From Streptomyces sp. NBC_00457 (lineage in GTDB: Bacteria > Actinomycetota > Actinomycetes > Streptomycetales > Streptomycetaceae): 64,000 bases of DNA. Where the stretch lies: positions 2,108,001 to 2,172,000 of the forward strand of contig NZ_CP107905.1 of assembly GCF_036014015.1 (NCBI RefSeq), read 5' to 3'. A model generated the notes under the pieces. That model was not told the DNA's origin and did not search any database. It saw only the letters and a program-made list of their open reading frames with translations. The position numbers and the translations under genes were made by a program. Positions within the stretch are counted from its first letter, which is position 1; every line of letters begins with the position of its first letter. Shown one piece after another: positions 29,943-57,297 of the stretch.

Positions 29943-29980
29943 CGGCCCGGTCACCGGCGGGGTGAGAATATGCCGCACGG

Positions 29981-31588: not shown

Positions 31589-31690
31589 AGTGTCTCTGCT
31601 GGTGTTAGCTTACTGCCGGGGACGGGGTTGACACCCCATATTGCGTAGGGTTCAGGCCGTATGCCAGGCCACAGGGGAGGCGGATCACCG

Positions 31691-34600
31691 ATGATGCAGA
31701 CAGCTCACCGGGAGCGGAGCGCGACAACTCCGGAGGAGCGACTGCCCGGAGACGGTGAGCTCGTCGAAGTGCGAGGCCAGAGCTGGGTCGTCGCCCGCGT
31801 GGAGCCCGCCCCGCCCACCAGCGGTCGCGCCGCCACGCTCGTCCACCTCCAATCCGTCGCCGACGGCCGGTTCGGCGACACCCTCTCTGTCATATGGGAG
31901 GTCGAGCCCGGCAGGCGCATCCTCGACCGCGGCTCCCTGCCCGACGCGTCGACCGGCCAGTACGACCCGCCGTCCCGCCTCGCCGCGTTCCTCGACGCCG
32001 TCCGCTGGTCGGCCGTCGCCTCCGCCGACGTCAAGACCCTCCAAGCGCCGTTCCGCTCCGGTGTCGCCGTCGAGCCCTACCAGCTCGAACCCGTCTCGCG
32101 AGCCGTCGGCGCCCCCCGCGTCAACCTCCTGCTCGCCGACGACGTGGGCCTCGGCAAGACCATTGAGGCCGGTCTCGTGGTCCAGGAGCTACTGCTGCGC
32201 GGCCGGGCCCGCCGCGTCATGGTGATCTGCCCGGCGGGCCTCACTTTGAAGTGGCGTGACGAGCTCGCTGAGAAGTTCGGCCTGGACTTCACCATCGTCG
32301 ATGCCGAGCACTGCGCCCGGCTGCGCCGCACCCACGGCACCGCGGCCAACCCGTTCCGCGTACACCCGCTCACCATCGTCTCCCTGCCGTGGCTGCGTGG
32401 CACCAAGGCGCAGCGCCTCCTCGACGAGGTCGTCCCGCCCCGCCAGGAGACCAAGGACGACGGCACCGAGCGCCGCTTCTTCGACCTGCTCGTCCTCGAC
32501 GAGGCCCACCATGTGGCCCCGGCCGCGCCCAAGCAGGTGTACGCCGTCGATTCCCAGCAGACCAAGCTGATCCGGCGCCTCGTCCCGCACTTCGAGCACC
32601 GGCTCTTCCTCTCCGCCACCCCGCACAACGGCTACCCCGAGTCATACACCGCGCTGCTGGAGCTCATCGACAACCAGAAGTTCGCCCGCGGCGTGGACCC
32701 CGATGAGCAGGCCCGCAAGGAGACCGTCGTCCGCCGCCTGAAGTCCACCATTACCAACCTCGACGGCTCCCCCCGCTTCCGCACCCGCCGAGACCCCCGC
32801 GAACTTCCCGTGGAGTACACCGATCCCGAGCGCGAGATCCACGGTGTGCTGAGCAGCTTCTCCGACCTGCGCCGCAAGCGGATGACCCCGAAGGCCCGCG
32901 GTGGCCGCCGCGCCGCTGACCTCGTCACCCTCCTGCTGAAGAAGCGACTGTTCTCCTCCCCGGCCGCCTTCCTGCACACCGTCCAGGTCTACCTCTCCCA
33001 CCTGGACGACACCCGGACCCGTTCCCGCTCGGCCGCCGCCGAAGTCCCAGAGTGGCTGGAGGACTTCCCCGACCTCGTCGCCGAACTCGACGACCTGGGA
33101 CTGGTGGAGGCCGAGGACGACGCCCTCACCCGTTCCACCAGCCTCACCCCGCAGGAGGACGGCGAGGAGCTAACCCTGCTCCAGCAGATGGAGCGCTGGG
33201 CGCTGACCCACGAGGCCGCCGCCGACTCCAAGGCCGACGTGCTCATCAGGGAACTGAAGGCAATCTGCCGCCCCGACGGCCAGTTCTGGACCAACGAACG
33301 CGTCATCATCTTCACCGAGTACCGCGACACCCAGAAGTGGCTGTTCAACCTGCTCCAGCAGGAGGAACTCACCGACGGCGGCCGCGTCGCCATCCTGCAC
33401 GGTGGCCTCAACACCGACGACCGCGAGCAGATCCGCCTCGGCTTCCAGGCTCACCCCGCCAGCGACGAGGGCAAGGTCCGCATCCTGCTGGCCACCGACG
33501 CCGCCAGCGAGGGCATCGACCTCCAGAACCACTGCCACCGCCTGTTCAACTACGACATCCCCTTCAACCCCAACAAGCTGGAACAGCGCATCGGCCGCAT
33601 CGACCGCTGGGGCCAGAAGAAGGACCCGGAGATCACCCACTTTATTGGCGCCGGCTGGGAGAAGGCCGCGGCTGGCTCCTACGAGGCCGACCTGGAGTTC
33701 CTCTCCCGCATCGCCCGCAAAATCGCCCGCACCGAAGCCGACCTGGGCTCCGTCAACGCCGTCATCGCCGACGCTGTTCAGCGCCGCATGACCGGCGACA
33801 CCACCCCCGTTGACATCGACAACGCCAAGCCGAAGCAGATCGCCGGCCGCCGCACCGGCGGCACCGTGGCCTCCGAGCAGAACGTCACGGCCCAGGCCAA
33901 GCGCCTCGCAGAGCAGTACCAGGAGACCGTCGACACCCTCGGCCTCACCCCCGCCAACATCAAACGGGTCGTCGACACCGCGCTCGCCCTGGACCACCAG
34001 CAGCCCCTCACCCCGTACTACAGCGAGGACTTGGAAGGGCTGTGGACGGTCCCGCCGCTCTCCGGCACCTGGGAACGCGCCACCCGCGGCCTCGCCCACA
34101 AGCTCCGCCCCGCCGAGCAGCGCCCCGTCACCTTCGACCCGGGGGTTGCCGCGCTCGGTCGCGACGACGTGGTCCTCACCCACCTCAAGCACCCGCTCGT
34201 CGCCCTCTCCACTCGCCTGCTCACCGCCGCCGTGTGGAACGCCGACACCGTCGGCCTGCACCGCGTCACCGCCGTCGTCACCGACGACCCCGCCGTGGAG
34301 ACCGCTCTCGTCTCCGCCTACGCCCGGTACGTCCTCGTCGGCGCCGACGGCACCCGCTTGCACGAGGAGATCCTGTACGCGGGCGGCTGGTTCGGCGACA
34401 CGGGCCGCTTCCGCCGCTGGGAGTCCGTACGCACTCAGGGCGCCGTCCTCGCCCGCGCCCTCACCGACGGCGCCGGGGCCGCTCCCGACCTGCGACACGC
34501 CTTCACCGAGGCCTGGCCCCGGCTGGAGAAGCCCCTCTACGACTCCCTTGCCGCCCGCGCCCGCGAACGCGGCGCCTCCCTCGAATCGGCGCTGGCCGCC

Positions 34601-34912
34601 CGCCGAACCGAGGAGGAGAACCGCATCCAGGCCACCCTGGACCGCTTCGAGGCCACCCTGCGCGCCAAGCTCAAGGAGGAGGGCGACGAAGCCAACGAGC
34701 AGATCGCCCTCTTCGGCACCCGCGAGGTGACCACTGCCGAACAGCGCCAGTACCGCGAGGACCGCGACCGCTGGCAGGCCCGCATCGAAGGCCTCGCCAC
34801 CGAACGCGAGCGCGAACTCGCTGCCATCGCGGCCCGTTACCACGAGCCGCGCTCCCACCTCTTCCCTGTCGCCGTCGTCCTCGTGATCCCTGCAAAGGAA
34901 GCCAGCCGATGA
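31691..34912 (+). CDS. drmD: DISARM SNF2-like helicase DrmD
   Basis: A 1073-residue SNF2-family ATPase, the hallmark of class 1 DISARM, an anti-phage system that restricts incoming DNA lacking host methylation. Visible: Walker A DDVGLGKTIEAG near residue 150, DEAH box VLDEAHHVAP near 270, SATPHNGY, and in the C-terminal RecA domain YDIPFNPNKLEQRIGRIDRW near 625 (motif VI). A charged helical C-terminal region follows. The ATG at 31691 is preceded by GGGGAGGCGG; an ATG at 31661 has no ribosome site. It overlaps drmMI by 4 bp (ATGA), so the two are co-translated. Confidence 0.92.
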   Translation: MMQTAHRERSATTPEERLPGDGELVEVRGQSWVVARVEPAPPTSGRAATLVHLQSVADGRFGDTLSVIWEVEPGRRILDRGSLPDASTGQYDPPSRLAAFLDAVRWSAVASADVKTLQAPFRSGVAVEPYQLEPVSRAVGAPRVNLLLADDVGLGKTIEAGLVVQELLLRGRARRVMVICPAGLTLKWRDELAEKFGLDFTIVDAEHCARLRRTHGTAANPFRVHPLTIVSLPWLRGTKAQRLLDEVVPPRQETKDDGTERRFFDLLVLDEAHHVAPAAPKQVYAVDSQQTKLIRRLVPHFEHRLFLSATPHNGYPESYTALLELIDNQKFARGVDPDEQARKETVVRRLKSTITNLDGSPRFRTRRDPRELPVEYTDPEREIHGVLSSFSDLRRKRMTPKARGGRRAADLVTLLLKKRLFSSPAAFLHTVQVYLSHLDDTRTRSRSAAAEVPEWLEDFPDLVAELDDLGLVEAEDDALTRSTSLTPQEDGEELTLLQQMERWALTHEAAADSKADVLIRELKAICRPDGQFWTNERVIIFTEYRDTQKWLFNLLQQEELTDGGRVAILHGGLNTDDREQIRLGFQAHPASDEGKVRILLATDAASEGIDLQNHCHRLFNYDIPFNPNKLEQRIGRIDRWGQKKDPEITHFIGAGWEKAAAGSYEADLEFLSRIARKIARTEADLGSVNAVIADAVQRRMTGDTTPVDIDNAKPKQIAGRRTGGTVASEQNVTAQAKRLAEQYQETVDTLGLTPANIKRVVDTALALDHQQPLTPYYSEDLEGLWTVPPLSGTWERATRGLAHKLRPAEQRPVTFDPGVAALGRDDVVLTHLKHPLVALSTRLLTAAVWNADTVGLHRVTAVVTDDPAVETALVSAYARYVLVGADGTRLHEEILYAGGWFGDTGRFRRWESVRTQGAVLARALTDGAGAAPDLRHAFTEAWPRLEKPLYDSLAARARERGASLESALAARRTEEENRIQATLDRFEATLRAKLKEEGDEANEQIALFGTREVTTAEQRQYREDRDRWQARIEGLATERERELAAIAARYHEPRSHLFPVAVVLVIPAKEASR

Positions 34913-37900
34913 GCCGCCCTGCCGCCTCTACCTTCCGTGGCTCCTCCCGTGGAGTCGCCGCCGCCAGGGCCAAGGCCATGGACGGCCGGGGCCAGCACCA
35001 GGAATGGCTCGACCTCACCGAGGTCTCCGGCCCCTTCCTGACGATGCCCGTGCTGCTTCAGGCCTGGCCCCAGCTCGACGCCCTCGACAAGGACCAGCGC
35101 ACCCGACTGCGCGCCCGCCACGCCGACTGGCAGGCCGACACCACCGCCGGCCGCGACGAGTGGACCGCCTACATCCTGCGCTCCCTGCTGGAGTGGGGCG
35201 ATGCGCTTGTTCTGCGCGAGGGCCAGGACGACGACCTCGCCCTGGACCGCCTCACTCTCGACGTCCCCGAGCACAACGCCCGTGTCCGCGCCGACTTCGC
35301 GCTCACCGAGCCCGGTGCGGAACTCGCCGCCGAACCGGACACGGGGTCTGCTGCCAAGCGCGTACGCATGCTGGGCATGACCATCCCCAGCGGCACCGCC
35401 CCAACGGCCCGCCCGAGCTGGGGCGACGACTGGGCGGCTGGTCCCGCCGACCGCCTCGCCCGACTCCTGCGCCACCACGACGTACCCCTCGGCCTGGTCA
35501 CCGACGGCCGCTGGTGGTGCCTGGTCTGGGCCCCGGTCGGCGGCGTCACGACCACGGCCGTCTTCGACGCCATCGGCTGGAACGAGGCCGCCGAACGCAC
35601 GGTCGTCCGCGCCTTCGTCTCCCTGCTGCGCCGCCGTCGCTTCTTCGAGTACGACGAGTCCGAGACTCTGGTCGGCCTGCTGAGGAAGAGCCTCGACGCG
35701 GGCGACGAGGTCACCGAGGCCCTCGGCATCCAGGTCCGCCAGGCCGTCGAGCAACTGGTGGACGCCATCAGCCGCGCCGACGCCAGCGCCATGGAACGCG
35801 GTGCCCCCGGCCTGCGCGCGAGCGGCGTCGAGGCGAGCGAGGTCTACCGGGGCGCGGTCGCGGTCATGATGCGCGTCGTCTTCCTCCTCTTCGCCGAGGA
35901 ACGCGGACTGCTGCCCGCCGACAACGAGGTCTACGCCCGCTCTTACTCCGCCCGCTTCCTGCGCGCCGAGCTGAAGTCCCGCGCCGACGCCGAGGGCGAG
36001 GCCTCCCTGGAGTACACGACCGCCGCCTGGCACCGCCTGATCGCGCTGTTCCACGCAGTGCACGGCGGAGTGCTGCACCCTGAGCTCGAACTCCCGGCGT
36101 ACGACGGCTCCATCTTCGATCCGGACAAGTACCCCTGGCTGGAGAACAGCTTCCCCCTTCTCCCCATCGACGACCGCACGGTGCTGCACATGCTCCAGTC
36201 CGTGCAGGAGGTCCGTGTCGGCACGGGCAGGCAGAGGGAGACCCGCACGCTCAGCTTCCGCGCGCTGGGCGTGGAGGAGATCGGCTACGTGTACGAGGGC
36301 CTGCTCTCGTACGACGCTCGGCGCGCCGTCGAGACGATGGTCGGCCTCATCGGCCCCGACGGCGTGGAACACGAGGTACCGCTGAGGGAGTTGGAGTCCC
36401 TGGCGGCGACGTCGAGGGACGTGAAGACCCTCGCGAAGAAGATCTACGAGACGTGGAAGGACCCCAAGCCGCCGGCGAGCGCGGTGCGGCTGGAGAAGCT
36501 GCTGGCCCCGGCGAAGGCGGAGGCCGCGACGGAGGCGAAGCGTCTGCTGCTCGCAGCCTGCCGCGACGCGGCCCTGACGGAACGTCTGCTGCCTTTCTTC
36601 GGTGTGATTCGGAGGGACCTGCGGGACCTGCCGGTGGTCATCCCGGCGGGCGCGCTGTTCGTGACGGAGTCCTCGCTGCGGAAGAACACGGGTACGCATT
36701 ACACCCCGCGCCGGTTGGCGGAGGAGGTCGTGCTGCACGCGCTGGAGCCGCTGGTGTACGAGCCGGGGCCGCTCCAGACGGCGGACAGGGATGCCTGGGT
36801 GCCGAAGACAGCTGAGCGGATCCGTGAGCTGAAGGTCGCGGACATCGCGATGGGCTCGGCGGCGTTCCTGGTGGCCGCTTGCCGGTACTTGGGGGATCGG
36901 CTGATCGAGGCGTGGGAGCGGGAGGGCCGCGAGGAGGCGGTCAAGTACCGGGCGGGGCGCGCTGTTGACGCGGTCACGGCAGCGGACGCGGAGTCCGACC
37001 CGGTAGTGATCGAGGCCCGGCGCCAGGTGATCGAGCACTGCCTGTACGGGGTGGACATCAACCCGATGGCCGTGGAGATGGCCAAACTGTCGCTGTGGCT
37101 GGTCTCCATGGACCCGACCCGCCCGTTCACCTTCCTGGACGACCGGTTGGTGGCGGGGGACTCGCTGCTGGGTGTGCACAACATGGAGCAGATCAGAGCG
37201 GAACACCTGGAACCGAGCGAGAAGCGCAGCCTCCTTACCAAGCACGCCGACGAGCGCGCGGAAGCACTGAGGAAGAAGGCCAAGGAACTCAAGGACCTTC
37301 GCTTGGCGATCACTTCGGTCAAGGGTGTGGACCTGGTCGCGCTGCAGCGTAAACGGGAGAAGCTCTCCGAGGTGAACCGTCACTCCGCACGGCTACGGCT
37401 TGTCGGCGACCTTCTTGCCGGTGCGGCACTGGCTACCTGTGCCTCGGGACGCATCGAGTGGTACGCGGAGGACGGCGGCAAGCGCATCAAGGATCTCTTC
37501 CCGCAGGCTGAGCTCATCGTGGAACGGATCATCGATGAGGAGGTTTCGGAAGACGCGGATGAAGTGCGGGAAGCCCATGACACCGCTGAAGAGTGGCTTT
37601 CCTCCGAAGCCCCGAGCGGAGGGCTGGCCCGACGACCTCTGCACTGGCCCCTGACCTTCCCTGAGGTCTTCACGGAACATGGAGGCTTCGACGCGATCAT
37701 CGGCAACCCGCCGTTCCTCGGCGGCCAGAAACTGACGGGCGCTCTGGGCGAGGCGTACCGCGAGTACATGGTCGACTACCTCGCTGACAAGAAGCGTGGT
37801 AGCGCCGACTTGGTGGCCTACTTCGAACTCCGCGCTCACCAGCTCCTCAACAAACATGGCCAGACGGGACTCATCGCCACCAACACTCTGGCTCAAGGCG

Positions 37901-39090
37901 ACACCCGTGAGGTCGGCCTGGACCAGTTGGAGGAGAAGAGGAAGGTCAGCATCCGGCGGGCGGTGAAGAGCGCACCCTGGCCTTCAAAGTCGGCGGCCTT
38001 GGAGTACTGCGCCGTCTGGACTTCGGTGCCGCCGCTCGCGAACGAGGCGGACAGAGTGCTGGACGGTGAGAAGGTTCGGGGCATCACGACGTCGCTGGAT
38101 CCGCAGTCACGGGTGAAGGGGCGGCCGTATCGACTGGTATCTGGGGACACTCCGGGGCGACCAGGCGCCTATATCGGCTCCTACGTCCTGGGCAAGGGAT
38201 TCATCCTGTCGCCCCAGCAAGCCGAGGAACTCATCCACCGGGATCCACGCAACCGCGACGTCCTCTTCCGCTACCTCAACGGCGAAGACCTCAACTCCCG
38301 TCCGGACTGCTCGGCCAGCCGTTGGGTGATCAACTTCCACGACTGGCCCGAGGAACAGGCACGCGAGTATCCCGACGTCTTCGCCATCGTGGAACGCGAC
38401 GTGAAACCCGAACGACTGAAGATCACGCACAGCAAGAACGCGCGCGAGAAGTGGTGGCTCTACGAGCGCAGCAGGCCAGACCTGTACTCAAAGATCCGAA
38501 AGCTAGACCGTGTCTTGGTGGTAGCGCTCGTGTCGCGAACCGTGATGCCGGTTCCGGTACCGACAGGACAGGTCTTCTCGCACATGCTCGGGGTGTTCAC
38601 AACCGCGGACTCTTCCCACTTGGCGTTGCTTAACAGCGGCATTCACTACTCGTGGGCGATCACACGCGGATCCAGCCTCAAGGGAGACCTCCGATACACG
38701 CCGTCAGACATCTACGAGACAATGCCGCAGCCAGCTAGCAGTACCTCCATGATCGCTGCAGGTGCTGAACTTGATCGGACCCGGCGCTCCATCATGGCTC
38801 AACGAAGTGTGGGGCTGACCAAGCTCTACAACCTTCTCCATGATCCCGCTTCAAAGGATGAGGAAATCGAAGCTCTGCGACAATGTCACCGAGCCGTGGA
38901 TAACGTGATCTCAGAGGCCTACGGGTGGACCGACCTGAGCTTGGAGCATGGCTTCCATGAGACTCGCCAAGGCGTGCGCTACACGTTTCCGATGCGTACT
39001 CGTACCGAGATCTTGGACCGACTTCTGGAGCTCAACCATGAGAGGCATTTTCAGTCACCCACAGAAGATGGCGAGGGACTACTTTTCTGA
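34909..39090 (+). CDS. drmMI: DISARM N6-adenine DNA methyltransferase DrmMI, with apparently invertible C-terminus
   Basis: A 1393-residue class 1 DISARM methylase that marks host DNA. Motif I is DIAMGSAAFLVAA near residue 648, and motif IV is FDAIIGNPPFLGG near 930, preceded by the TGTHYTPRRLAEEVV segment usual in PglX and Eco57I-type enzymes. The region after about 1000, ending in a conserved DLRYTPSDIYETMPQP, should be the target-recognition part. Residues 1093-1163 are encoded by a 212-bp segment repeated exactly, inverted, at 39772-39983. Past it the protein has a 230-residue tail whose alternative lies on the other strand. Without the drmD neighbour it could be called PglX-like; the DISARM context decides. 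Confidence 0.9.
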   Translation: MSRPAASTFRGSSRGVAAARAKAMDGRGQHQEWLDLTEVSGPFLTMPVLLQAWPQLDALDKDQRTRLRARHADWQADTTAGRDEWTAYILRSLLEWGDALVLREGQDDDLALDRLTLDVPEHNARVRADFALTEPGAELAAEPDTGSAAKRVRMLGMTIPSGTAPTARPSWGDDWAAGPADRLARLLRHHDVPLGLVTDGRWWCLVWAPVGGVTTTAVFDAIGWNEAAERTVVRAFVSLLRRRRFFEYDESETLVGLLRKSLDAGDEVTEALGIQVRQAVEQLVDAISRADASAMERGAPGLRASGVEASEVYRGAVAVMMRVVFLLFAEERGLLPADNEVYARSYSARFLRAELKSRADAEGEASLEYTTAAWHRLIALFHAVHGGVLHPELELPAYDGSIFDPDKYPWLENSFPLLPIDDRTVLHMLQSVQEVRVGTGRQRETRTLSFRALGVEEIGYVYEGLLSYDARRAVETMVGLIGPDGVEHEVPLRELESLAATSRDVKTLAKKIYETWKDPKPPASAVRLEKLLAPAKAEAATEAKRLLLAACRDAALTERLLPFFGVIRRDLRDLPVVIPAGALFVTESSLRKNTGTHYTPRRLAEEVVLHALEPLVYEPGPLQTADRDAWVPKTAERIRELKVADIAMGSAAFLVAACRYLGDRLIEAWEREGREEAVKYRAGRAVDAVTAADAESDPVVIEARRQVIEHCLYGVDINPMAVEMAKLSLWLVSMDPTRPFTFLDDRLVAGDSLLGVHNMEQIRAEHLEPSEKRSLLTKHADERAEALRKKAKELKDLRLAITSVKGVDLVALQRKREKLSEVNRHSARLRLVGDLLAGAALATCASGRIEWYAEDGGKRIKDLFPQAELIVERIIDEEVSEDADEVREAHDTAEEWLSSEAPSGGLARRPLHWPLTFPEVFTEHGGFDAIIGNPPFLGGQKLTGALGEAYREYMVDYLADKKRGSADLVAYFELRAHQLLNKHGQTGLIATNTLAQGDTREVGLDQLEEKRKVSIRRAVKSAPWPSKSAALEYCAVWTSVPPLANEADRVLDGEKVRGITTSLDPQSRVKGRPYRLVSGDTPGRPGAYIGSYVLGKGFILSPQQAEELIHRDPRNRDVLFRYLNGEDLNSRPDCSASRWVINFHDWPEEQAREYPDVFAIVERDVKPERLKITHSKNAREKWWLYERSRPDLYSKIRKLDRVLVVALVSRTVMPVPVPTGQVFSHMLGVFTTADSSHLALLNSGIHYSWAITRGSSLKGDLRYTPSDIYETMPQPASSTSMIAAGAELDRTRRSIMAQRSVGLTKLYNLLHDPASKDEEIEALRQCHRAVDNVISEAYGWTDLSLEHGFHETRQGVRYTFPMRTRTEILDRLLELNHERHFQSPTEDGEGLLF
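38186..38397 (+). repeat. 212-bp perfect inverted repeat, arm in expressed drmMI
   Basis: Read base by base, this segment equals the reverse complement of 39772-39983 with no mismatch. It begins and ends within drmMI and its last base closes codon 1163. One mismatch at 38398 is followed by 13 further identical bases. An outlying shared 11-mer (CGACTGGTATC at 38131) shows that older homology extends upstream. Confidence 0.97.
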
Positions 39091-39093
39091 CCT

Positions 39094-40044
39094 TCAAAAG
39101 AGAACGGAGTCAGCTTTCCCTGTGTGCTGGGCGTAGTTCAGTTCGAGTAGGCGATCGATGACTTCGGTCTGGATCACCTGCGACAGGCTGAACCGCATTC
39201 CTTGTCGAGTCGTTGTGAAGCCGTGGTACAGGTTCAGGTCTTGCCAGCTGTAGGCATCCACCACGGCGTGGTCGACCTCTACATGTGCGGCGCGCAGAGC
39301 CTGAATGTCTCCGTCGATCACGCTTGGGTCGTGGACGAGGTTGTACAGCCTAGTCAGGCCAACCTTACGCTGACTCATGATTGAGCGCCTGATCCGATCG
39401 AGTTCGGCGCCCGTGGTGACCATGGCGGTGGTGCGCGATGGCTGGGGCAATGTCTCGTAGATATCCGACGGAGTGTAGCGGAGGTCTCCCTTGAGGCTAG
39501 ACCCCCGTGCGATTGCCCACGTGTAGTGGATGCCGCTGTTGAGCCAAGTAAGGTCCTCAAGGCGGTCGGAGGCGAACACTACAGTCTGTTCGCTCGTGAC
39601 CTGACCAGTGGGCACGAAGACTGGTAGCCCCGTCTTGCTCACGCGTGCTACCACCAAAATGCGTTCCAGCCCGGCGATGGATGCGTAGAGCCTTGGGGCG
39701 CGCTCTGCGAACTGCCACCACCGTTCTCGGCGTACCTTGCGGTTGTTCTTCATCCGCTCGGGTTTCACGTTGCGTTCCACGATGGCGAAGACGTCGGGAT
39801 ACTCGCGTGCCTGTTCCTCGGGCCAGTCGTGGAAGTTGATCACCCAACGGCTGGCCGAGCAGTCCGGACGGGAGTTGAGGTCTTCGCCGTTGAGGTAGCG
39901 GAAGAGGACGTCGCGGTTGCGTGGATCCCGGTGGATGAGTTCCTCGGCTTGCTGGGGCGACAGGATGAATCCCTTGCCCAGGATGATCGATCCTTGGAAG
40001 GACTGTCCGGCATTGGATACCAGTCGGTGCTGAAATATCTCATT
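39094..40044 (-). pseudogene. Silent alternative 3' end of drmMI (inverted cassette)
   Basis: An open frame of 316 codons, closed upstream by a stop at 40045-40047 and without ATG, ribosome site or promoter, so it is not expected to be made on its own. It begins with the family segment HRLVSNAGQSFQGSIILGKG, enters the 212-bp arm, and ends in a 225-residue tail clearly related to but different from the expressed one (shared blocks such as ARGSSLKGDLRYTPSDIYET; many differences between). Its stop is 3 nt from the drmMI stop, tail to tail. The reading frame across the arm matches drmMI, so inversion would give an intact 1388-residue DrmMI variant. I read it as a storage cassette rather than decay: there are no internal stops or frameshifts. 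Confidence 0.85.
39772..39983 (-). repeat. 212-bp perfect inverted repeat, arm in silent cassette
   Basis: Reverse complement of 38186-38397 with no mismatch. The arms enclose 1374 bp (38398-39771) that hold only the two alternative drmMI tails. The perfect identity of the arms against the marked divergence of the tails implies recent exchange between them. Confidence 0.97.
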
Positions 40045-40070
40045 TTAAGACATTGTTGAATGTTTTATGG
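40043..40070. other. AT-rich imperfect dyad, candidate recombinase site
   Basis: TTTTAAGACAT (40043-40053), a 6-bp centre TGTTGA, and ATGTTTTATGG (40060-40070) form an 11-6-11 imperfect dyad (7 of 11 pairs), the geometry of XerC/D core sites. It sits at the outer end of the silent cassette, just before the recombinase gene, in unusually AT-rich sequence. It could equally be a promoter for the recombinase. Confidence 0.3.
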
Positions 40071-40123
40071 CCATGTGAGGGTGATCCCGGTTTGGCTGCT
40101 CTGATAGTGCACACGTTCCCCTC

Positions 40124-40969
40124 ATGGTCCTCGATGCCTTCATTGCTGCACAGCATGTGGACGGATACTCGATCAACACCATCCGTGCCAGAGCCCGCTG
40201 TATTCGCGCCATCGCCAAGGCGGCCCTCGTTCGAGTTGAGGACTTGACCGTCGGTCATGTGATGGCCTACTTCGCGGCGCGCTCGCTCAAGCCGTGGTCC
40301 CGGCGGACTTATCTCAATCACCTGCAGGCTTTTGGTAGATGGAGAGGCGTAGACCTTGTCACCGGTATTCGAAAGCCGCCGGCACCGCGTTCAACGCCGA
40401 ACCCTCTGCCGGAGGGGGACCTGTCCCGCATTACTTCAGTCGCGCGCGGCCATCATCGCGCGTGGGTGCTTCTGGGGGCCTTCTGTGGTCTGCGAGCGCA
40501 TGAGACAGCCAAGCTCAGACGTGAGGACATATCGGTCCTCCAGGATGGCGAGGTAGTCCTGAGGGTGCAAGGTAAAGGCGGACGTATCGATGTCGTCCCG
40601 GTCCCTCCTGTTGTTACTCAAAAGCTGGACCTCACGGCCGAGGGCCGTCTGTGGGGCGGAGTCACCCCTGAGCGCGTATCGCGCACGGTCGCTGCCATCG
40701 CGGCCAAGGAGGGCATCCGTATGCGCTACCACCAGCTGAGGCACCGCTTCGGGACGGCCGTCTATCGCGCCTCCGGCCGCGACCTCCTGCTCACCCAGCG
40801 CCTGATGAGGCATGCTTCACCGGCGACGACCGCAGGGTATGCGGCAGTGGCCGACGATCAAATCCACAAGGTGGTTGGGTTGTTGCCGGGCGCAGACCCC
40901 AACCGCAAGAGCCGCGATGGTAAGCGAGGGGTGACAGGCTGTCAACAGTGTCGCGCCCGCATCGCCTGA
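40124..40969 (+). CDS. Tyrosine recombinase (XerC/D size), candidate drmMI invertase
   Basis: A 281-residue recombinase. An N-terminal core-binding domain (about 1-95) precedes the catalytic domain, where all residues of the active site are visible: Arg in GAFCGLRAHETAKL, Lys in VQGKGG, His-x-x-Arg in YHQLRHRFGT, His in LMRHASPATT and Tyr in TAGYAAV. An in-frame stop at 40082 leaves ATG 40124 as the only good start; no ribosome site is visible, so it may be leaderless. It is much shorter than typical actinomycete element integrases and lies 79 bp past the silent drmMI cassette, so DNA inversion there is the likeliest job. Integration of the whole island is an alternative. Confidence 0.88.
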   Translation: MVLDAFIAAQHVDGYSINTIRARARCIRAIAKAALVRVEDLTVGHVMAYFAARSLKPWSRRTYLNHLQAFGRWRGVDLVTGIRKPPAPRSTPNPLPEGDLSRITSVARGHHRAWVLLGAFCGLRAHETAKLRREDISVLQDGEVVLRVQGKGGRIDVVPVPPVVTQKLDLTAEGRLWGGVTPERVSRTVAAIAAKEGIRMRYHQLRHRFGTAVYRASGRDLLLTQRLMRHASPATTAGYAAVADDQIHKVVGLLPGADPNRKSRDGKRGVTGCQQCRARIA

Positions 40970-41101
40970 TCCCGCACAACTGCATCTTGCAGGGTGCACG
41001 GTTAATCCTCTGTCGATGCTGACACCCAGCCTCATGCCCAGGGCGGATGGTGGCGGGACGGGGGGCGTGAGCCGGAAGATTTCAAGTCTCGTGCCTCAGC
41101 G

Positions 41102-41535
41102 TGCACACCCCAGCCCCAGCCCAGGCTGCCGGCCCTGTCGTTCCGCGAGCAGCTCACTTCGACCCGGCGAGGGGCCCGGCTCGCCCGGCTGCTCGTCGTG
41201 CAGCAGCTCGGCGACTGGGGATTCCCCGAGGCGGCCGTACGGCGTCCGCCGTGGCGGCCGTCGCCGCCAACGCCGTCACGCACGGACGGTCGCCCGGACA
41301 GGACTTCGCGCTGCGCCTGACACTGGCGCCGGAGTCGGTGCGCGTCGAGGTTACCGACACCCGGCCGGACAGGCTCCCGCTGGCACCCGGGAAACTGCCC
41401 GAACTGCCAGTGCCGGAGGCGGGGCGCGGCCTGCTCCTCGTCGAAGCCCTCGCCGACCGGTGGGTCATGGGATCGCGGAACCCCTGCACCAACACGCTGT
41501 GGGCCGAGGTCGATCGGGCACCCAGTCGCCGCTGA
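41102..41535 (+). pseudogene. Frameshifted anti-sigma-factor-like ATP-binding protein (HATPase_c)
   Basis: Both parts of a small RsbW-like ATPase are present but in different frames. The first part (frame of 41102) reads LSFREQLTSTRRGARLARLL and QQLGDWGFPEAA; the second (frame of 41101) continues AVAAVAANAVTHGRSPGQDF, VRVEVTDTRPDRLP and GRGLLLVEALADRWVMG, with the ATP-site Asn in AANAVTHG. The frame changes near 41235. Unless this is a sequencing error, the gene is inactive. A second, shorter decayed copy lies at 47500-47772, on the far side of the lipase-caspase module. Confidence 0.65.
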
Positions 41536-41672
41536 CAGTTTCGATGCGGCCTTCCCGCAAGGGTAACTACCGTCCATGAGCTCGACATTGGGTAACACGC
41601 CTTGGTGTCGCCACGACCACAGTCCCCGGCTTTCTCGCCCTCAGTGCGAGACATGCCGGATATCGTTCCCGC

Positions 41673-43202: not shown

Positions 43203-43214
43203 GCGCAGTGCGTC

Positions 43215-47474: not shown

Positions 47475-47499
47475 GGTGCACTTGCCGCCCACCCTGGAC

Positions 47500-47772
47500 A
47501 CTTTCACGCACGACCGTTACGCCGGGGCGGGACTTCGTGCTGTGCCTGACGCTGACCCCTCCCCCGTCCGTATCAAGGTCACCGACACCCGGACGGACAG
47601 GCTCCCACCAAGCCCCGCCGAACTCTGCGCGCCCTCATCGCAGGACGCGACGACCGGCCGTGGTCTGCTCTTCGTCGCGGCCTTTGCGGACCGGTGGGGC
47701 TGCGGCCCTCAGGATTCGTACGTCAAGACGGTCTGGGCGGAGGTCGATCGGAGCCTTGCCTGTCAGCTCTGA
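47500..47772 (+). pseudogene. 5'-truncated, frameshifted copy of the HATPase gene
   Basis: The DNA resembles the 3' two-thirds of the gene at 41102-41535: matching blocks around TTCACGCACGACCG, GGGACTTCGTGCTGTGCCTG and GTCACCGACACCCGGACGGA, ending in a TVWAEVDR-type C-terminus. The 5' third is absent and the frame changes near 47570. It begins just after the caspase-STAND gene and its last bases overlap the end of the minus-strand gene at 47763. The two decayed copies bracket the lipase-caspase module. Confidence 0.6.
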
Positions 47773-48629: not shown

Positions 48630-48734
48630 AACTTCCTCCGCTCGATCGTGTGTCGAGGTGCACTCTCAATGCCGCCTCGGCACACGGGAGTTGGGCCCCC
48701 AGGGTCGACGCGTTACGCACCAGGCTGGACCATT

Positions 48735-48750
48735 GTGTGAACTGAGTCAA
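48735..48750 (+). promoter_or_regulatory. Shared island motif, copy 3
   Basis: GTGTGAACTGAGTCAA differs from copy 4 at one position. It lies between the minus-strand gene starting at 48629 and the gene at 49053, just beyond the 3' end of a broken gene. As it is over 300 bp from 49053, the nearer target is the minus-strand gene about 105 bp away. Confidence 0.5.
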
Positions 48751-48782
48751 CTGATGCAAGGTGTTCGGCAGGCGAAAGGAGG

Positions 48783-48884: not shown

Positions 48885-49052
48885 GGCTTCCTCCGGCCCT
48901 TGTACTGTTCGAGTCGTCCCGATCAACGCTGCGCGTACGCACGGGAGTTGTAGGGATTCGCGCGCCGGGTTGCTGGAAAGCACACCAACCGAGCCGATGC
49001 TGCGGCGATCCGCGCGCAACCCATGACCGATGGCACCAGCGGGGGAGAAGAC

Positions 49053-50762: not shown

Positions 50763-53700
50763 ATGCCGTCCCAGCCCCCCGCCGTACCCGGCGTGCCGCA
50801 TCCGCTGAACGAGGTGCCGCAGACTTTCCGCCCCGGCGACTCGTACGACGTACGCGACGGGCTGGTGAAGTACATCCGGCGGGACCTCCTCGGCCCCTGG
50901 GACGGGGAGACCGAGGAACTGCCGCACCGGTCGGCGGGGCCGCGCGACCGCTACCTTGTGGGCATGCTCGGCCCCCGCCCGGACGGCGGTGACAACGCCC
51001 GGCAGATGGCCCGCAGCGCCGCGCAGACCGGCGACGACGAACCCGGCAGCGACGACGGGCAGGGCGCCGAGGGCGGCGAACTGCCCGAGCGACTCACGCC
51101 GCAGGCCGCCGGCCGTATCTGGGCCTCCTCCATGGGGCTGTCCTTCGTGGTTCCGGCGTCGATCGGCACGCTCAGCGTCACCGCCGGCTGGGGGCGGTAC
51201 TCGCTGACCGACAGGCTCATCGACACCAGCCCGAATCCGGTGCGCGTGTGGGGCCGCGAGCCCGTGAAGCACACTCCCATCGACATCGAGGTCACCCGGG
51301 CCGGCGACCAGCGCCGCGTCCTGGAGGGGGACGACAGCCACGGCATCCACCTCGACGTGCAGGTCCGTGAACGCCCGGCCAGGGCGGCGGGCGAGGACCT
51401 GCGTGTCGTGGAGGTCGCCCTCGTCAACAGGCTCCCAGAAAGCACCACCGACCGCAGGGACACCCAGTGGCTGTTCCAGACCGGCCTTGAGGTCACCGCG
51501 TTTCCTGACGACCGGGCGGCCGTCTTCCTGCCCATTGACGACCCGCTGGACCCCAGGTCCGCTGGCGCCTCAGAGGAGGCGGAGGAGCGGCGGCTGCGGC
51601 TGCTCTACCGTGACAGCCTCCGCTACGCCGTCGGCCGCAACGTCGCCGTCACCGCCGCCGTACGCCACGATGAGCGGCGGGCCCACCGGCTGGTCACCAC
51701 CTGGCTTCCCGAGTACGACGTGCGGGCCACCACCGCTCCCAAGGTCGCCGAGCAGCCGCTGTTGGCCGGACTGGAACTCGGTATGGACGAACTGGCCGCC
51801 CTCGCCGTGCCCGGCCGCCGCGCGGAACTGAGTACCGCCCTGGCTCCGCTCGCAGACGGCTACAACACCTGGCTCCAAACACAGCGCGAGAAGGCGGTAA
51901 CCCTCCCCGAGGACCTGCGCAAAGCCGCCGAGGCAGCCATCGACCAGGCCGAGGAGGTGTGTCACCGCATCGCCTTCGGCATCGACGTCCTGTCCACCGA
52001 CGACGACGCGCTCGAAGCGTTCCGGTTCGCCAACCGCGCCATGGCCCTCCAGCGGCGCAACACCGCCATCGCCGCTCGGCGCGCCGGGCACGAGGACGAT
52101 CCCGCCTCCTACCGGCGGGCCCACCAGGAAGTGGACGAGAAGGGCAAGGAAGCGGCCGCCTGGCGGCCCTTCCAGCTCGCCTTCGTCCTTCTTAACCTCG
52201 CCTCGCTGAGCGCGCCCGGCCACCCGCACCGCGGCACCGGGCGCGAAGCCCTCGTCGACCTGCTGTTCTTCCCCACCGGTGGCGGCAAGACCGAGGCCTA
52301 CCTGGGCCTCGCCGCGTACACCTTCGCCCTGCGCAGGCTCCAGGGCATCGTGGGCAGCGCAGCCGAGGCCCGCGACGGCAGCGCGGGAGTCGCCGTCCTC
52401 ATGCGCTACACCCTGCGACTGCTGACGGCCCAGCAGTTCCAGCGGGCCGCCGCCCTGGTCAGCGCCTGCGAAGTGCTGCGCCGCGAGGAGTACGCGCGCG
52501 ACCGGCGCTGGGGCGCCACCCCGTTCCGTATCGGACTGTGGGTGGGAACCTCGGTATCGCCCAACTGGTTCGGTGAGGCCCAGGAGCAGATCGCGGGGGC
52601 CCGAGAGAGCGCCAGCGACAAGCACGCGCGGGTCATCCAGGTCCTCAGCTGCCCCTGGTGCGGGCAGGGCCTGACCGCCCACTCCAACATGGACTACGAC
52701 CCCGACCGGCGCCGCGTGCTGCTGTACTGCCCGCGCGGTGAGGGCGAGGACCGCTGCCCCTTCTCCCGGCTCGGCTCACCCGACGAGGGCATCCCCGTGC
52801 TCACCGTCGACGAGGAGATCTACCGCCTCGCACCCGCCATGGTCATCGCCACCGTCGACAAGTTCGCCCAGCTGCCGTGGAACGGCTACGCCGGGCTGCT
52901 GTTCGGCCGGGTCACCGAGTGGTGCCCGCGCCACGGCTACCGCCACGACGACCTCGACGAGCGCACCGGCTGCCGCAGCCGCCACACCCGCAAGGGGACG
53001 CTGGACGCGGTGACCGCCCAGCCCGTCACCCGGCTGCGGCCCCCGGACCTGATCATCCAGGACGAGCTGCACCTGATCTCCGGCGCGCTCGGCACCACCG
53101 TCGGACTCTTCGAAGCCGCCATCGACCAGCTGTGCAGCTGGTCGTACACCGACGGCGGCGGCGTACGACACGAGGTCGGCCCGAAGATCGTCGCGTCCAC
53201 GGCGACCACCAAGCGCGCCGCCGAGCAGGTGCGTGGCGTCTTCGCCCGTAAGGTCGCCGTCTTCCCGCCGCAGGTCCTCGATGTCGGCGACACCTTCTTC
53301 TCCCGGCAGGTGGAGCTCGCCCGGGACAACCCCGGCCGCCGTTACCTCGGCGTGTGCGCGCACGGCACCCGGTTGAAAGCCGCCGAGATCCGGGTCGCCG
53401 AGATCCTGCTGCTCGCCGGACAGGAGCAGTTCGACACGTACGGGGCCGCCGCTGACCCGTACATGACGCTCGTCGGCTACTTCAACGCCACCCGCGAACT
53501 CGCCGGCATGCGCCGCTACCTCGACGATGACATCGCCACCCGCGTCCGCGCCAACGGCGGCCGTAAGGGGCACGACACGATCGCGGACCGCATTCCCACC
53601 AAGTCCGGGATGCTCACTATCCAGGAACTGACCTCCCGCATCTCCTCGGCGGACATCAGCGCCACCCTCAAGCGGCTGGAGTCCCCCTTCGAACCGGAAC

Positions 53701-54638
53701 GGGACACTTCGAAGCGTCGCAAGGCCTTTGCCGCCGAGTACGTGGCGGCCCGGCGGGACAAGCGCGAGCCGCGGGCCCGTATGACGCCCGTGCAGGAGCG
53801 GGCGGTGGACGTCGTACTGGCCACTTCCATGCTCCAAGTCGGCGTCGACGTCTCCCGGTTCGGCCTGATGCTCGTAGTCGGCCAGCCCAAGAACACCGCC
53901 GAGTACATCCAGGCGTCCTCCCGCGTCGGCCGAGACGCGCGCCGCCCCGGACTGGTCGTCACCCTCTACAACTGGTCCCGCCCGCGAGACCTGGCGCACT
54001 TCGAGGACTTCGCGCACTACCACGCGACCTTCTACCGTCAGGTCGAAGCACTGTCGGTCACCCCGTTCACCCGTCGAGCACTCGACCGGGGTACGGCACC
54101 CACGTACATCGCGGCGTTGCGCCAGGCCGCGTACGAGCACTCCCGCAACACCGATGCCCAGCACGTAGATCTCTACGGTGAAGTCGCCCAGCAGGTCGAA
54201 CAGCGGCTGCTGGAACGGGCGGACCGTGTCGGCGGGCAGCGTGCTCAGGACTATCTGACCGAACGTATTGAGGCCCTGAAGGACCGCTGGGAGGAACGGC
54301 GCGAAAGCGGCGGCGTCCTGGGCTACCGCAAGGAGAAGAAGAAGGACACCCTGGTCACCGGGCTTCTTCACCGAGCCGACGGCTCACGCTGGGACGAACT
54401 CACCGTGCCCATGTCCATGCGGGAGACCGAGAACGAACTCAACCTGCTACTGCCGGGCGGCGGCAACTTCGTGGACCAGCCCACCAACGGTGGTCCCGCC
54501 TGGCACTTCGGGGCCGCCGCCGGCAAGGACGCCGAGGGCACGGGCGGGGAAGGCGGAGACGGTGGCGACGGTGGCGCGCAGGTCGACGCCGACGAGTACG
54601 GGGACGCCGCCGAGGCGGCAGGAAAGGGACGTCGATGA
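50763..54638 (+). CDS. drmA: DISARM helicase DrmA
   Basis: A 1291-residue superfamily 2 helicase of DISARM, which together with DrmB senses and restricts incoming phage DNA. Walker A is FFPTGGGKTEAYLGL near residue 502, and the Walker B position is LIIQDELHLISG near 766 (DELH instead of DEAH). A four-Cys cluster (SCPWCG, YCPRGEGEDRC near 630-660) may bind zinc. The C-terminal RecA domain has LQVGVDVSRFG and IQASSRVGRDARRPG near 1050. A Gly/Asp-rich tail ends the protein. The ATG follows AAAGGG. It overlaps drmB by 4 bp (ATGA). Confidence 0.93.
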   Translation: MPSQPPAVPGVPHPLNEVPQTFRPGDSYDVRDGLVKYIRRDLLGPWDGETEELPHRSAGPRDRYLVGMLGPRPDGGDNARQMARSAAQTGDDEPGSDDGQGAEGGELPERLTPQAAGRIWASSMGLSFVVPASIGTLSVTAGWGRYSLTDRLIDTSPNPVRVWGREPVKHTPIDIEVTRAGDQRRVLEGDDSHGIHLDVQVRERPARAAGEDLRVVEVALVNRLPESTTDRRDTQWLFQTGLEVTAFPDDRAAVFLPIDDPLDPRSAGASEEAEERRLRLLYRDSLRYAVGRNVAVTAAVRHDERRAHRLVTTWLPEYDVRATTAPKVAEQPLLAGLELGMDELAALAVPGRRAELSTALAPLADGYNTWLQTQREKAVTLPEDLRKAAEAAIDQAEEVCHRIAFGIDVLSTDDDALEAFRFANRAMALQRRNTAIAARRAGHEDDPASYRRAHQEVDEKGKEAAAWRPFQLAFVLLNLASLSAPGHPHRGTGREALVDLLFFPTGGGKTEAYLGLAAYTFALRRLQGIVGSAAEARDGSAGVAVLMRYTLRLLTAQQFQRAAALVSACEVLRREEYARDRRWGATPFRIGLWVGTSVSPNWFGEAQEQIAGARESASDKHARVIQVLSCPWCGQGLTAHSNMDYDPDRRRVLLYCPRGEGEDRCPFSRLGSPDEGIPVLTVDEEIYRLAPAMVIATVDKFAQLPWNGYAGLLFGRVTEWCPRHGYRHDDLDERTGCRSRHTRKGTLDAVTAQPVTRLRPPDLIIQDELHLISGALGTTVGLFEAAIDQLCSWSYTDGGGVRHEVGPKIVASTATTKRAAEQVRGVFARKVAVFPPQVLDVGDTFFSRQVELARDNPGRRYLGVCAHGTRLKAAEIRVAEILLLAGQEQFDTYGAAADPYMTLVGYFNATRELAGMRRYLDDDIATRVRANGGRKGHDTIADRIPTKSGMLTIQELTSRISSADISATLKRLESPFEPERDTSKRRKAFAAEYVAARRDKREPRARMTPVQERAVDVVLATSMLQVGVDVSRFGLMLVVGQPKNTAEYIQASSRVGRDARRPGLVVTLYNWSRPRDLAHFEDFAHYHATFYRQVEALSVTPFTRRALDRGTAPTYIAALRQAAYEHSRNTDAQHVDLYGEVAQQVEQRLLERADRVGGQRAQDYLTERIEALKDRWEERRESGGVLGYRKEKKKDTLVTGLLHRADGSRWDELTVPMSMRETENELNLLLPGGGNFVDQPTNGGPAWHFGAAAGKDAEGTGGEGGDGGDGGAQVDADEYGDAAEAAGKGRR

Positions 54639-56539
54639 GCGGCAACTACTACCGGCGGGTGGGCGCGGCACGCCCCAGCCACCTCATGTACACGGCTGGC
54701 GTGGGTGCGCTAGTCGACCTGCCCAACTTCTCCGTCCTCGTCAAGGGACTCGAATCCTGGAGCCACACAGGGCTCCTCCCGGACGACTACCTCATCGAGG
54801 AACCCCGACTGCGCACCGCCGTCAACCGGGCCCTCCAGCTCTACGGACGCTCCCAGATCAGCGAGCTGCGCTCCGCCCCCTGGATGGAGGGCGCGGACGG
54901 CGCCCCCAAGGACTGGGCAGCGCAGGGCATCGGAGTCCCCGTCACGCCCTTTCCTCAGTGGCTGCGATGCACCGCGTGCAACCTGCTCGCGCCCATCGAC
55001 GCGGACGCCTTCACCTTCCTCAACAACAACCCGCGCACCCCGCACGAGGCGAAGTTCGCCCACAGCGACTGCAAGTTCGGCAGGCCGCTCGCCGTAACCG
55101 CACGCTTCACCCTGGTCTGCACGAACGGACACCTCGACGAGTTCCCGTACGCGATGTTCGTGCACCGTGGCAACGTGTGCGCGAAGAGCCCCCGACCGCT
55201 GATGCGGATGAAGGACCACGGAGGCAACCAGGCGGCCAACGTCACCCTCGAATGCGTCGCCTGCGGGGAGAAGCGCAACATCCGCGATGCGATGGGCGAG
55301 CGGGGCCGCGCCGAGCTGCCCGCCTGCCGCGGCCGCCACCCGCACCTGTCCGCCTTCGAGAGTGACGGCTGCGACCGCGAGGCCACCCTGATGGTGGCGG
55401 GCGCCTCCAACCAGTGGTTCCCGATGACGCTCAGCACCCTCGCCCTGCCGCCGAGCAGGAACCAGGACCTGACTGAACTCGTCGAGGAACGCTGGGTGGA
55501 ACTGCAGAACGTCACCTCCCGTCCCGTCTACGACGCCCTGTCCGCCATGCCGCAGTTCACCTACCTCGAGGAGTACGACCCGGACGCGCTGATCGCCGCC
55601 GTCGAGGCCCGCAGACAGGGCGCGACCGGACAGCAGAACCAGGCCACCGAGGTGGCGGCGGACCTGCTCAGCCCCGAATGGGACGTCCTCGCCGCGCCGC
55701 ACGTTCCCGACCCCACCGACGACTTCGCGATGGAGAGCGTCACCGTTCCCACGACCCTTGACGGACTGTTCTCGGACGTCCGCCAGGTGCAGCGGCTTCG
55801 GGAGGCCCGCGCGCTGGTCGGATTCACCCGCCTCGACGCCCCCGACCCCGAATCCGACGAGATCGCCACCCTCGTACGGCTCTCCCGCACCTCGCAGAAT
55901 TGGGTGCCGGCCAGCGAGGTCCGCGGTGAGGGCATCTTCCTGCGGGTGCGCGAGGACCTGATGGCCGAGTGGCAGGACCGGATGCAGAAGTCACCGCAGA
56001 TGGCGGCGCACCGGGAAGCCTTCGGCCGGTTCCGCAGCAACCGGAAGTCGGACCGCATCACGGGCCCCTTCGACCCCATGCGCGGCTGGCCCGGCGAACG
56101 CTACATAGCTCTGCACACCCTGTCCCACCTGCTGATCCGCACCATCGCCCTCGAATGCGGCTACAGCTCGGCGAGCCTCGGCGAACGTATCTACGCCGGA
56201 GACGAGGAGAACACCCGTACCGGCATCCTCATCTACACCGCCGTCCCCGACTCCGAGGGCACCCTGGGCGGCCTCGTCTCGCTCACCGAGGACACCCACT
56301 TCGAACGGATCGTGCGCAGGGCCCTGGAGGACGCGGCCCGCTGCTCCTCCGACCCGCTGTGCGCCGAACGGCTGCCGAAGGACCCCGCGGACTACCTGCA
56401 CGGCGCGGCCTGCCACGTCTGCCTCTTCGTCTCCGAGACGACCTGCGAACGCGGCAACCGCTTCCTGGACCGCCGTTTCCTCGTCCCACTCGGCGACGAC
56501 ACCGACCAGGTGCTGACACCGGTGAACCTGCGGCCGTGA
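54635..56539 (+). CDS. drmB: DISARM protein DrmB (DUF1998)
   Basis: A 634-residue partner of DrmA. The N-terminal part has pairs of cysteines (LRCTACN, HSDCKFG, ECVACGEKR) suggesting zinc sites. The C-terminal DUF1998 domain begins around LHTLSHLLIRTIALECGYSS near residue 495 and ends with the Cys set CSSDPLCAERL and ACHVCLFVSETTCERGN. In the published DISARM complex DrmA and DrmB act together in loading and recognising DNA. ATG start overlaps drmA; its stop overlaps drmC by 4 bp (GTGA). Confidence 0.93.
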   Translation: MSGNYYRRVGAARPSHLMYTAGVGALVDLPNFSVLVKGLESWSHTGLLPDDYLIEEPRLRTAVNRALQLYGRSQISELRSAPWMEGADGAPKDWAAQGIGVPVTPFPQWLRCTACNLLAPIDADAFTFLNNNPRTPHEAKFAHSDCKFGRPLAVTARFTLVCTNGHLDEFPYAMFVHRGNVCAKSPRPLMRMKDHGGNQAANVTLECVACGEKRNIRDAMGERGRAELPACRGRHPHLSAFESDGCDREATLMVAGASNQWFPMTLSTLALPPSRNQDLTELVEERWVELQNVTSRPVYDALSAMPQFTYLEEYDPDALIAAVEARRQGATGQQNQATEVAADLLSPEWDVLAAPHVPDPTDDFAMESVTVPTTLDGLFSDVRQVQRLREARALVGFTRLDAPDPESDEIATLVRLSRTSQNWVPASEVRGEGIFLRVREDLMAEWQDRMQKSPQMAAHREAFGRFRSNRKSDRITGPFDPMRGWPGERYIALHTLSHLLIRTIALECGYSSASLGERIYAGDEENTRTGILIYTAVPDSEGTLGGLVSLTEDTHFERIVRRALEDAARCSSDPLCAERLPKDPADYLHGAACHVCLFVSETTCERGNRFLDRRFLVPLGDDTDQVLTPVNLRP

Positions 56540-57297
56540 GCCGCCGGGACTTCGAGGCGGCGGCAGAGCAGGCCGTCGTCCTGCTCGGGCCATCCCGGGC
56601 CAAGGACCTGGCGGGGGTGTTCACTCGCGGCCGGGGCCTGGAGCATGCACTGCTCCTGGTCCAGGCCCCGGCCGTCGGCGATGCGATCCGGGCGCTGTAC
56701 GAGGCAGTCCAGAGCAATCACGTCCCGTCGGCCGAGGCCGCCGCCTACCTTCGTGGGTTCGTGGCAGGGTGGTCCCGGCGCAGGGACGAAGCCGAAGTGC
56801 GCACGGTGTGGAGCGGACCGGCCACACCGGGCGTGCCGGTACGCGCGACCGCACGCGTCCTTACTGACGTCGTCGGCGGGGCCCGATCCGAACTCCTGGC
56901 CATGACCTACGCGGCCCGCCGCTACTCTCCGCTCATATCCGCCCTGCGCGAAGCCGTCGCACGCGGCGTCGACGTGCATGTCGTCGTCGAGACCCGGGAA
57001 GGCGCGGCCGGACTGCTCGGCGGACCCGAGCCGGCCGCGGCATTCGCCTCGGTGCCCGGCCTGAGACTCTGGCACTGGGCCCCCGCGGTACGCGAGCACG
57101 AGCATGCCCGGCAGCACGCCAAACTGGCCGTCGCTGATCGCCGCATTCTGCTGGTGGGCAGCGCGAACCTCACGGAATCCGGAGTCCGCAGGAATCTGGA
57201 AGCCGGGGTGCTCGTCACCGGCGGCACTGCTCCGCAGAGGGCCGCCGAACACATCCGGGAACTGCAGCGCCGGGGGATTCTGACTCCGCTGCCCTGA
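56536..57297 (+). CDS. drmC: DISARM phospholipase D-like protein DrmC
   Basis: A 253-residue PLD-superfamily protein with one HKD motif, HARQHAKLAVADRRILLVGS then AN, near residue 195, typical of PLD nucleases that dimerise. An N-terminal helical region precedes it. In experiments on a class 2 DISARM system drmC was dispensable for protection. GTG 56536 overlaps the drmB stop by 4 bp. Last gene of the drmABC operon; a minus-strand DUF397 gene ends 69 bp beyond. Confidence 0.92.
   Translation: MSRRDFEAAAEQAVVLLGPSRAKDLAGVFTRGRGLEHALLLVQAPAVGDAIRALYEAVQSNHVPSAEAAAYLRGFVAGWSRRRDEAEVRTVWSGPATPGVPVRATARVLTDVVGGARSELLAMTYAARRYSPLISALREAVARGVDVHVVVETREGAAGLLGGPEPAAAFASVPGLRLWHWAPAVREHEHARQHAKLAVADRRILLVGSANLTESGVRRNLEAGVLVTGGTAPQRAAEHIRELQRRGILTPLP

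Follow-up and report, generated by a model that had tools for sequence, protein, structure and literature searches.

Known systems closest to the drmMI locus

Inversion-switched methylation specificity is known for Type I hsdS genes, and what is new here, within the literature searched, is such an arrangement in the defence island system associated with restriction-modification (DISARM). We analyzed a 64,000-nt stretch of DNA from Streptomyces sp. NBC_00457 (contig NZ_CP107905.1, positions 2,108,001 to 2,172,000; hereafter, the window), in which the class 1 DISARM methyltransferase gene, drmMI, is followed by an inverted, silent copy of its own 3′ part and by a gene for a tyrosine recombinase. 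We consider it probable (roughly 0.83) that inversion driven by this recombinase switches the methylation specificity of DrmMI. The evidence is sequence-level and comprises the anatomy of the locus, its open frames, a layout common to seven loci, concerted arms, recombinase motifs, contact residues and tail blocks found in sister strains. The layout, concerted arms, MmeI-type contact residues and sister-strain tail blocks support the reading as a specificity switch that was put forward in an earlier, sequence-only account of this DNA (the preliminary description).

Excerpts of the literature report phase-variable Type I hsdS genes in the pneumococcal PsrA locus (PMC7096588) and in a survey of duplicated hsdS (PMC7394358), and 13 species are reported to have Type I systems with invertible sites (PMC5903667). 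Like these loci, the one described here has inverted repeats, silent specificity parts and a linked recombinase (often present at hsdS), with a change of specificity, not an on/off switch, as the expected outcome. HsdS is a separate subunit with two target domains, whereas here the methyltransferase, a single-chain DISARM enzyme with an MmeI-type domain, would have its own C-terminal part switched, and the recombinase gene lies inside the DISARM gene set.

Invertible PglX was named as a known case in the preliminary description, and the S. coelicolor case of PglX variation is an on/off switch. For the bacteriophage exclusion (BREX) system, phase variation is reported, in the excerpts available, to be common in pglX genes (PMC11341690) and to have been observed for PglX in S. 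coelicolor (PMC9122589). PglX is, like DrmMI, an adenine methyltransferase of an anti-phage system, the two enzymes are related, and their target domains match distantly in fold; unlike PglX, DrmMI belongs to a different system and scores 47.7 bits against an NCBIfam PglX cut-off of 500. MmeI, a Type IIL enzyme, is not known to switch. The fold of the DrmMI target domain and its covarying contact pairs are those described for MmeI in part of its structural report (5hr4, PMC4833311), but DrmMI differs from MmeI in being part of DISARM.

The gene set in the window, drmD, drmMI, drmA, drmB and drmC, is that of described DISARM systems. DISARM is said to have been discovered by Ofir in 2018. Unlike the locus reported here, the DISARM treated in the available excerpt of PMC9142583 is described with neither inversion nor a recombinase, and the adenine motif given there for Serratia DISARM, ACAC(mA)G, is fixed. 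The preliminary description held inversion to be undescribed for DISARM. In agreement, the open-licence literature searched yielded no account of DISARM inverting or varying in phase, the original DISARM paper being outside that scope, and term look-ups in portions of PMC5903667, PMC12839542 and PMC12458937 returned no passage on DISARM inversion.

Inverted arms around two alternative drmMI ends

The drmMI gene (34909..39090, + strand) encodes an adenine methyltransferase that matches PADLOC DrmMI (1742 bits) and Pfam Eco57I, MmeI_Mtase and MmeI_TRD; the PADLOC match bears out its earlier assignment to DISARM DrmMI. An exact 212-bp inverted repeat, with a left arm at 38186..38397 (+ strand), starting about where the MmeI_TRD match starts, and a right arm at 39772..39983 (− strand), surrounds two alternative drmMI 3′ ends. 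An exact match of this length is far beyond chance; the repeat extends to 240 bp when 5 mismatches are allowed, and a search of the whole one-contig 10.8-Mb genome found these two arm copies only.

The two tails lie tail to tail between the arms, with stop codons that face one another 3 nt apart. Translation from ATG 34909 yields 1393 aa in the present orientation and 1388 aa when the segment is inverted in silico, and the two forms are an estimated ~93% alike overall. The arm positions, the tail-to-tail arrangement and both product lengths had been given in the preliminary description and were all confirmed. Both orientations thus encode a full enzyme, and the expected effect is therefore a change of specificity rather than an on/off switch.

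The silent 3′ cassette (39094..40044, − strand) consists of a 316-aa open frame (39097–40044) plus a stop codon, in keeping with the earlier statement that it lacks internal stops, and its AlphaFold2 model has a mean predicted local distance difference test (pLDDT) score of 90.6. Its homology to the DrmMI protein begins outside the exact arm (by 6 residues according to the search, ~20 by eye) and is diverged there. The cassette had also been said to have no start and no promoter. The claim on the start is not strictly true: in-frame GTG codons occur within the arm at 39843 and 39780, where the same codons are internal to drmMI. As for promoters, our scan found promoters and terminators around the cassette at background level only; absence is not demonstrable in this way, and one minus-strand sigma-70 site was found in 38000–42000 (10 of 12 matches at 40945–40917; 0.7 expected, i.e., background level), located inside the recombinase gene and ~0.9 kb upstream of the silent frame.

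Third-position G+C is ~0.85 in the drmMI body, 0.62 in tails with a recombinase (6 loci) and 0.73 in tails without one (18 loci; a further 7 did not match the search pattern, and 1 fragment was too short). In the window, the fall occurs in the stretch between the arms (38398–39771), as in the drmMI tails of other loci. We considered low G+C as a sign of foreign tails and rejected it, the drop being general to tails with and without a recombinase.

A linked recombinase recurs with the inverted drmMI end

The recombinase gene (40124..40969, + strand; Pfam Phage_integrase) follows the silent cassette and encodes the complete 281-aa tyrosine recombinase noted earlier. Judging by motif, we take its catalytic set to be R124, K151, H203, R206, H230 and Y239. 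Each of these six putative catalytic residues is conserved at 98–100% in an alignment of 121 sequences, the query included, and the linked enzyme therefore has intact catalytic motifs. Its nearest solved relatives are the phage integrase Gp33 (5vfz) and XerC/XerA-type enzymes.

The preliminary description had proposed a search of other DISARM loci for inverted drmMI 3′ copies beside recombinases. Our search for carriers was keyed on the recombinase, not on the inverted repeat. Among genome contigs, the recombinase had three relatives, in Streptomyces sp. NBRC 110468 (L036; 97% identity), S. aidingensis (L037; 72%) and S. physcomitrii LD120 (L038; 69%). The carriers also include S. paludis. At ≥68% identity, the recombinase was present in 3 of 392 genomes of the genus (the window's own, G110 and G225; G002 reached 37%), and a genus survey with protein P0028 as the query returned G110 and G225 (2 of 392). 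The family survey yielded 3 of 345 genomes (the window's own, G617 and G461, the last from another genus), the class survey 1 of 394 (the window's own only) and a survey of G110 relatives 1 of 90 (G110 itself only). On plasmids, ≥60% identity was reached by 0 of 68 recombinase-matching and 0 of 433 DrmMI-matching records. At least 9 of 24 recombinase relatives (≥60% identity, contig of ≥20 kb) were on a contig of equal size to that of a listed DrmMI, including one from a Nocardiopsis, and two more of the 24 are the S. aidingensis locus and G110.

All seven loci (the window, L036, L037, L038, G110, G225 and G461), from Streptomyces and one other genus, have the same layout: drmD, drmMI, an inverted drmMI 3′ part, a recombinase on the drmMI strand and drmA downstream. 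The recombinase starts 104–155 bp past the right arm across the seven loci. Silent frames were open with a stop codon in all five loci checked, and in G461 the silent homology forms one unbroken stretch. In L037, only the arms are visible; the stretch between them is spanned by an assembly gap (8351–9555, 1205 bases, exactly between the arms), as might result from a mixture of orientations or simply from the repeat.

Inverted repeats commonly cause misassembly, and this gap between arms is what an assembly artefact might look like. An artefact or a chance duplication has a negligible probability for the locus as a whole and is refuted by the other loci: the tails are diverged, the window's genome (G000), G110 and G225 are one-contig genomes, and the same layout appears in independent assemblies. 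Tyrosine integrases often target gene 3′ ends, and the recombinase here adjoins a copy of a gene end, as would be expected of an integrative element that used the drmMI 3′ end as its attachment site and brought a replacement gene end. Integration yields direct repeats, however, whereas the repeats are inverted in 7 of 7 loci, and drmA lies within ~220 bp of the recombinase in L038, G110 and G461, which makes such an element very improbable.

For controls, a DrmMI match was found in 32 of 295 genomes; the window's genome and G225 are carriers, and four others (G078, G130, G099 and G202) were dropped for weak or broken matches. This left 26 control genomes with one drmMI locus each, G110 being represented by its second drmMI, which were screened for relatives of the window's recombinase only and for inverted repeats of ≥35 bp. 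None of the 26 control loci had a recombinase relative downstream, and none had a silent inverted tail; one of these drmMI genes (G262) has an internal stop, and one locus (L051) has only ~0.7 kb of downstream sequence. In all, the inverted copy is present in 7 of 7 recombinase loci, the window included, and in 0 of 26 controls.

Two control loci are of interest in themselves. The second locus of G110 (L066) is a drmMI-drmA-drmB-drmC locus without a switch in the same genome as one with it. In G122 (L060), two full-length, diverged drmMI genes face each other at 4–4122 (+ strand) and 7934–12034 (− strand) and are 77% alike over 398 bp; no recombinase relative was found at this locus, which is possibly a related two-enzyme arrangement.

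Arms exchange sequence within each lineage

Over ~200 bp, the two arms of one locus match at 100% in five loci and at 99.5% in G110, whereas arms of different loci are 80–94% identical. The pattern is clearest between the window and L036, whose drmMI bodies are 97.8% and recombinase genes 94.3% identical at the DNA level, while their arms are only 89.6% identical, each locus having its own arm pair at 100%. Arms that are alike within a genome and diverged between close genomes must therefore change together, and the sequences indicate that the arms exchange sequence inside each lineage, as the preliminary description had concluded from diverged tails beside identical arms.

A candidate for the crossover core comes from G225, in which the switched part begins with an arm of only 41 bp, with unrelated A+T-rich DNA outside it on the silent side and tails that diverge at once inside it. 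Its equivalent in the window lies at the inner end of the arm (38371..38411, + strand), with a right copy at 39758..39798 (− strand) that has 1 mismatch to the left one. We propose these 41 bp as the core (core 1). No foldable hairpin above chance was found in the proposed core. Codon-level conservation of the core was suggestive but was left unused: the recombinase loci are mutually related, and the pattern missed G225 and 10 of 28 other loci.

We propose that the neighbouring recombinase would act on the cores at the inner arm ends (~38371–38411 and 39758–39798) and invert the segment between them, which would exchange the last ~230 DrmMI residues (two target-domain modules and the C-terminal part) for the silent set. 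The methylated motif would change and, with it, the DNA that DISARM tolerates as self.

Target-domain modules form a mosaic across loci

DrmMI contains an MmeI-type target domain (Pfam MmeI_TRD, 41.9 bits; cut-off, 27), fold matches agree, and both tails are predicted to fold like the MmeI target domain. The two tails differ at positions matching MmeI base contacts. The motifs predicted for them would both end in mA-G and have the second base in common, with a difference at base 3 and probably also at base 1. Each tail is laid out as a module A (up to a VLVVA motif), a module B and a C-terminal part. Expressed module A lies at 38422..38526 and expressed module B, which contains the positions corresponding to the MmeI contacts with base pairs 3, 4, 5 and 6, at 38527..38697 (both + strand); silent modules A and B lie at 39646..39747 and 39475..39645 (both − strand). 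The A/B boundary is marked by TTGGTGGTAGC at 38515..38525 (+ strand) and, in the silent copy, at 39647–39657; the motif occurs once per strand in the window.

This second sharp boundary inside the target domain, which the preliminary description did not contain, suggests a two-module shuffle. In S. physcomitrii, the two tails have module A in common and differ from the point after CTGGTGGTAGC onward, and this point is also where an exact repeat of 34 bp in G461 ends; in L036 a 26-bp exact repeat crosses and passes it. Modules A and B occur in several combinations among loci and proteins. The boundary could represent another site of crossover or simply a block of homology. A DISARM subclass with a dedicated recombinase as a conserved cluster gene and two nested shuffle sites (core 1, and CTGGTGGTAGC as core 2), giving up to four target combinations per locus, is a tentative extension to which we would give slightly less than even odds.

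Two DrmMI proteins, P0159 (Streptomyces sp. FT1) and P0276 (unclassified Streptomyces), have bodies that are 99.4% identical to each other and 98.7–99.0% identical to that of G110. The two proteins have module A in common with each other and differ in module B and the C-terminus. The P0159 block is the expressed one of G110 (B, 57/57; C, 89%), and that of P0276 is the silent one (B, 57/57; C, 94%). The active and silent blocks of G110 are therefore each expressed in a sister strain, an alternation that horizontal exchange may also have produced.

Evidence for and against recombinase-driven inversion

Several observations weigh against the proposal that the recombinase inverts the segment and switches specificity. 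With the silent tail as the query, no identical tail, and hence no inverted form of the window locus, appeared among the best 120 of 738 proteins (E ≤ 1e−30; top, 67%); with the present tail, the top match was 64% among the best 120 of 465 (E ≤ 1e−60). Protein clustering at 90% could conceal an inverted sister of the window locus. P0159 and P0276 are known as proteins only, and their module A is unlike either G110 module A (53–55%). Target domains are also replaced without a recombinase, e.g., between L024 and L027 (body, 91%; target domain, 44%), and diversity alone is therefore no proof of inversion. Inversion in culture, this recombinase as the actor, different motifs for the two tails and an effect on phages are what we infer.

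Such replacement, together with the mosaic of modules A and B between loci, would fit a silent tail that serves as a static store from which target domains are slowly exchanged through gene conversion or horizontal recombination, with no programmed inversion. Against a store of this kind, which we regard as quite unlikely, stand the recombinase linked in each of the seven loci and a silent copy that is open with a stop codon in 5 of 5 loci checked, unbroken in a sixth and placed to give a full protein on inversion.

A somewhat stronger, though still unlikely, alternative is that the segment inverts through general homologous recombination of its long arms and that the recombinase is a passenger or serves another site. 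Arms of ~200–340 bp are long enough for RecA, arms in this range are found in 6 of 7 loci, and the identity of arms within a locus resembles gene conversion. G225 has an extra inverted stretch of 359 bp at 94% identity in the C-terminal parts of both tails, and the window has a second one of 219 bp at 79%. A pneumococcal inverting hsdS locus is reported, in part of PMC6620402, to be independent of all known site-specific recombinases, which advises caution as to the actor. Against this stand the constant position and strand of the recombinase in 7 of 7 loci, compared with a relative downstream in 0 of 26 controls, and its retained catalytic motifs. In addition, G225 has no more than a 41-bp arm where the switched part begins, and exchange at the 359-bp stretch, which lies behind the target domain, would leave that domain unswapped. 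This constant neighbourhood points to the recombinase as the probable actor, and recombinase-driven inversion remains the reading that we favor.

DISARM gene set and surroundings

The locus holds a class 1 DISARM gene set. Besides drmMI, it includes drmD, an SNF2-type helicase gene (31661..34912; PADLOC DrmD, 1398 bits; NCBIfam DISARM_DrmD, 1354 bits with a cut-off of 610), and the core genes drmA (50763..54638; PADLOC DrmA, 998 bits), drmB (54635..56539; PADLOC DrmB, 242 bits; Pfam MZB domain) and drmC, a phospholipase D-type (PLD) nuclease gene (56536..57297; PLDc_2), all on the + strand. PADLOC DrmC matches (375 bits) from residue 191 of a longer open reading frame (ORF), in which the interval from codon 176 to codon 215 contains a single start codon, GTG 56536. 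Possession of drmD and drmMI, both present here, is the signature of class 1.

All DISARM genes of the window are on one strand, but ~9.8 kb of other genes separate the recombinase from drmA. This insert (41673–50636, + strand) encodes an LCAT-like hydrolase, a 1419-aa WD40 protein and two ORFs without a Pfam match; the hydrolase and WD40 genes are also present in L036 at 94–98% identity. Upstream of drmD are two ORFs with protein kinase domains (27522–31564, + strand) and further defence-island genes (21909–28931), namely, a Type I-kind N6 methyltransferase gene, a GmrSD-type restriction gene (24074–26704) and a UvrD-type helicase gene. A pPIWI-RE (Ppr) defence system occupies 10844–20284 (− strand) with four genes, PprPIWI, PprDinG, PprRE and PprPDDEXK.

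Implications for self/non-self discrimination

The way in which DISARM discriminates between self and non-self is not settled: although methylation is important, DrmAB reportedly acts on DNA structure and on DNA that is unmethylated (PMC9142583, in excerpt). A re-aimed methyltransferase would leave the chromosome unmethylated at the new motif after each flip, and the locus would therefore serve as a natural experiment for asking whether unmodified host DNA comes under attack by DISARM. The predicted change of motif would be readable directly from long-read methylation data. If the switch is real, DISARM would hedge its bets against phages bearing the modification of the host, and the locus would possibly be a phasevarion in actinomycetes. 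If the nested two-site shuffle also holds, DISARM self-marking would be a programmed moving target, tolerable only if the effector senses entering DNA rather than the chromosome.

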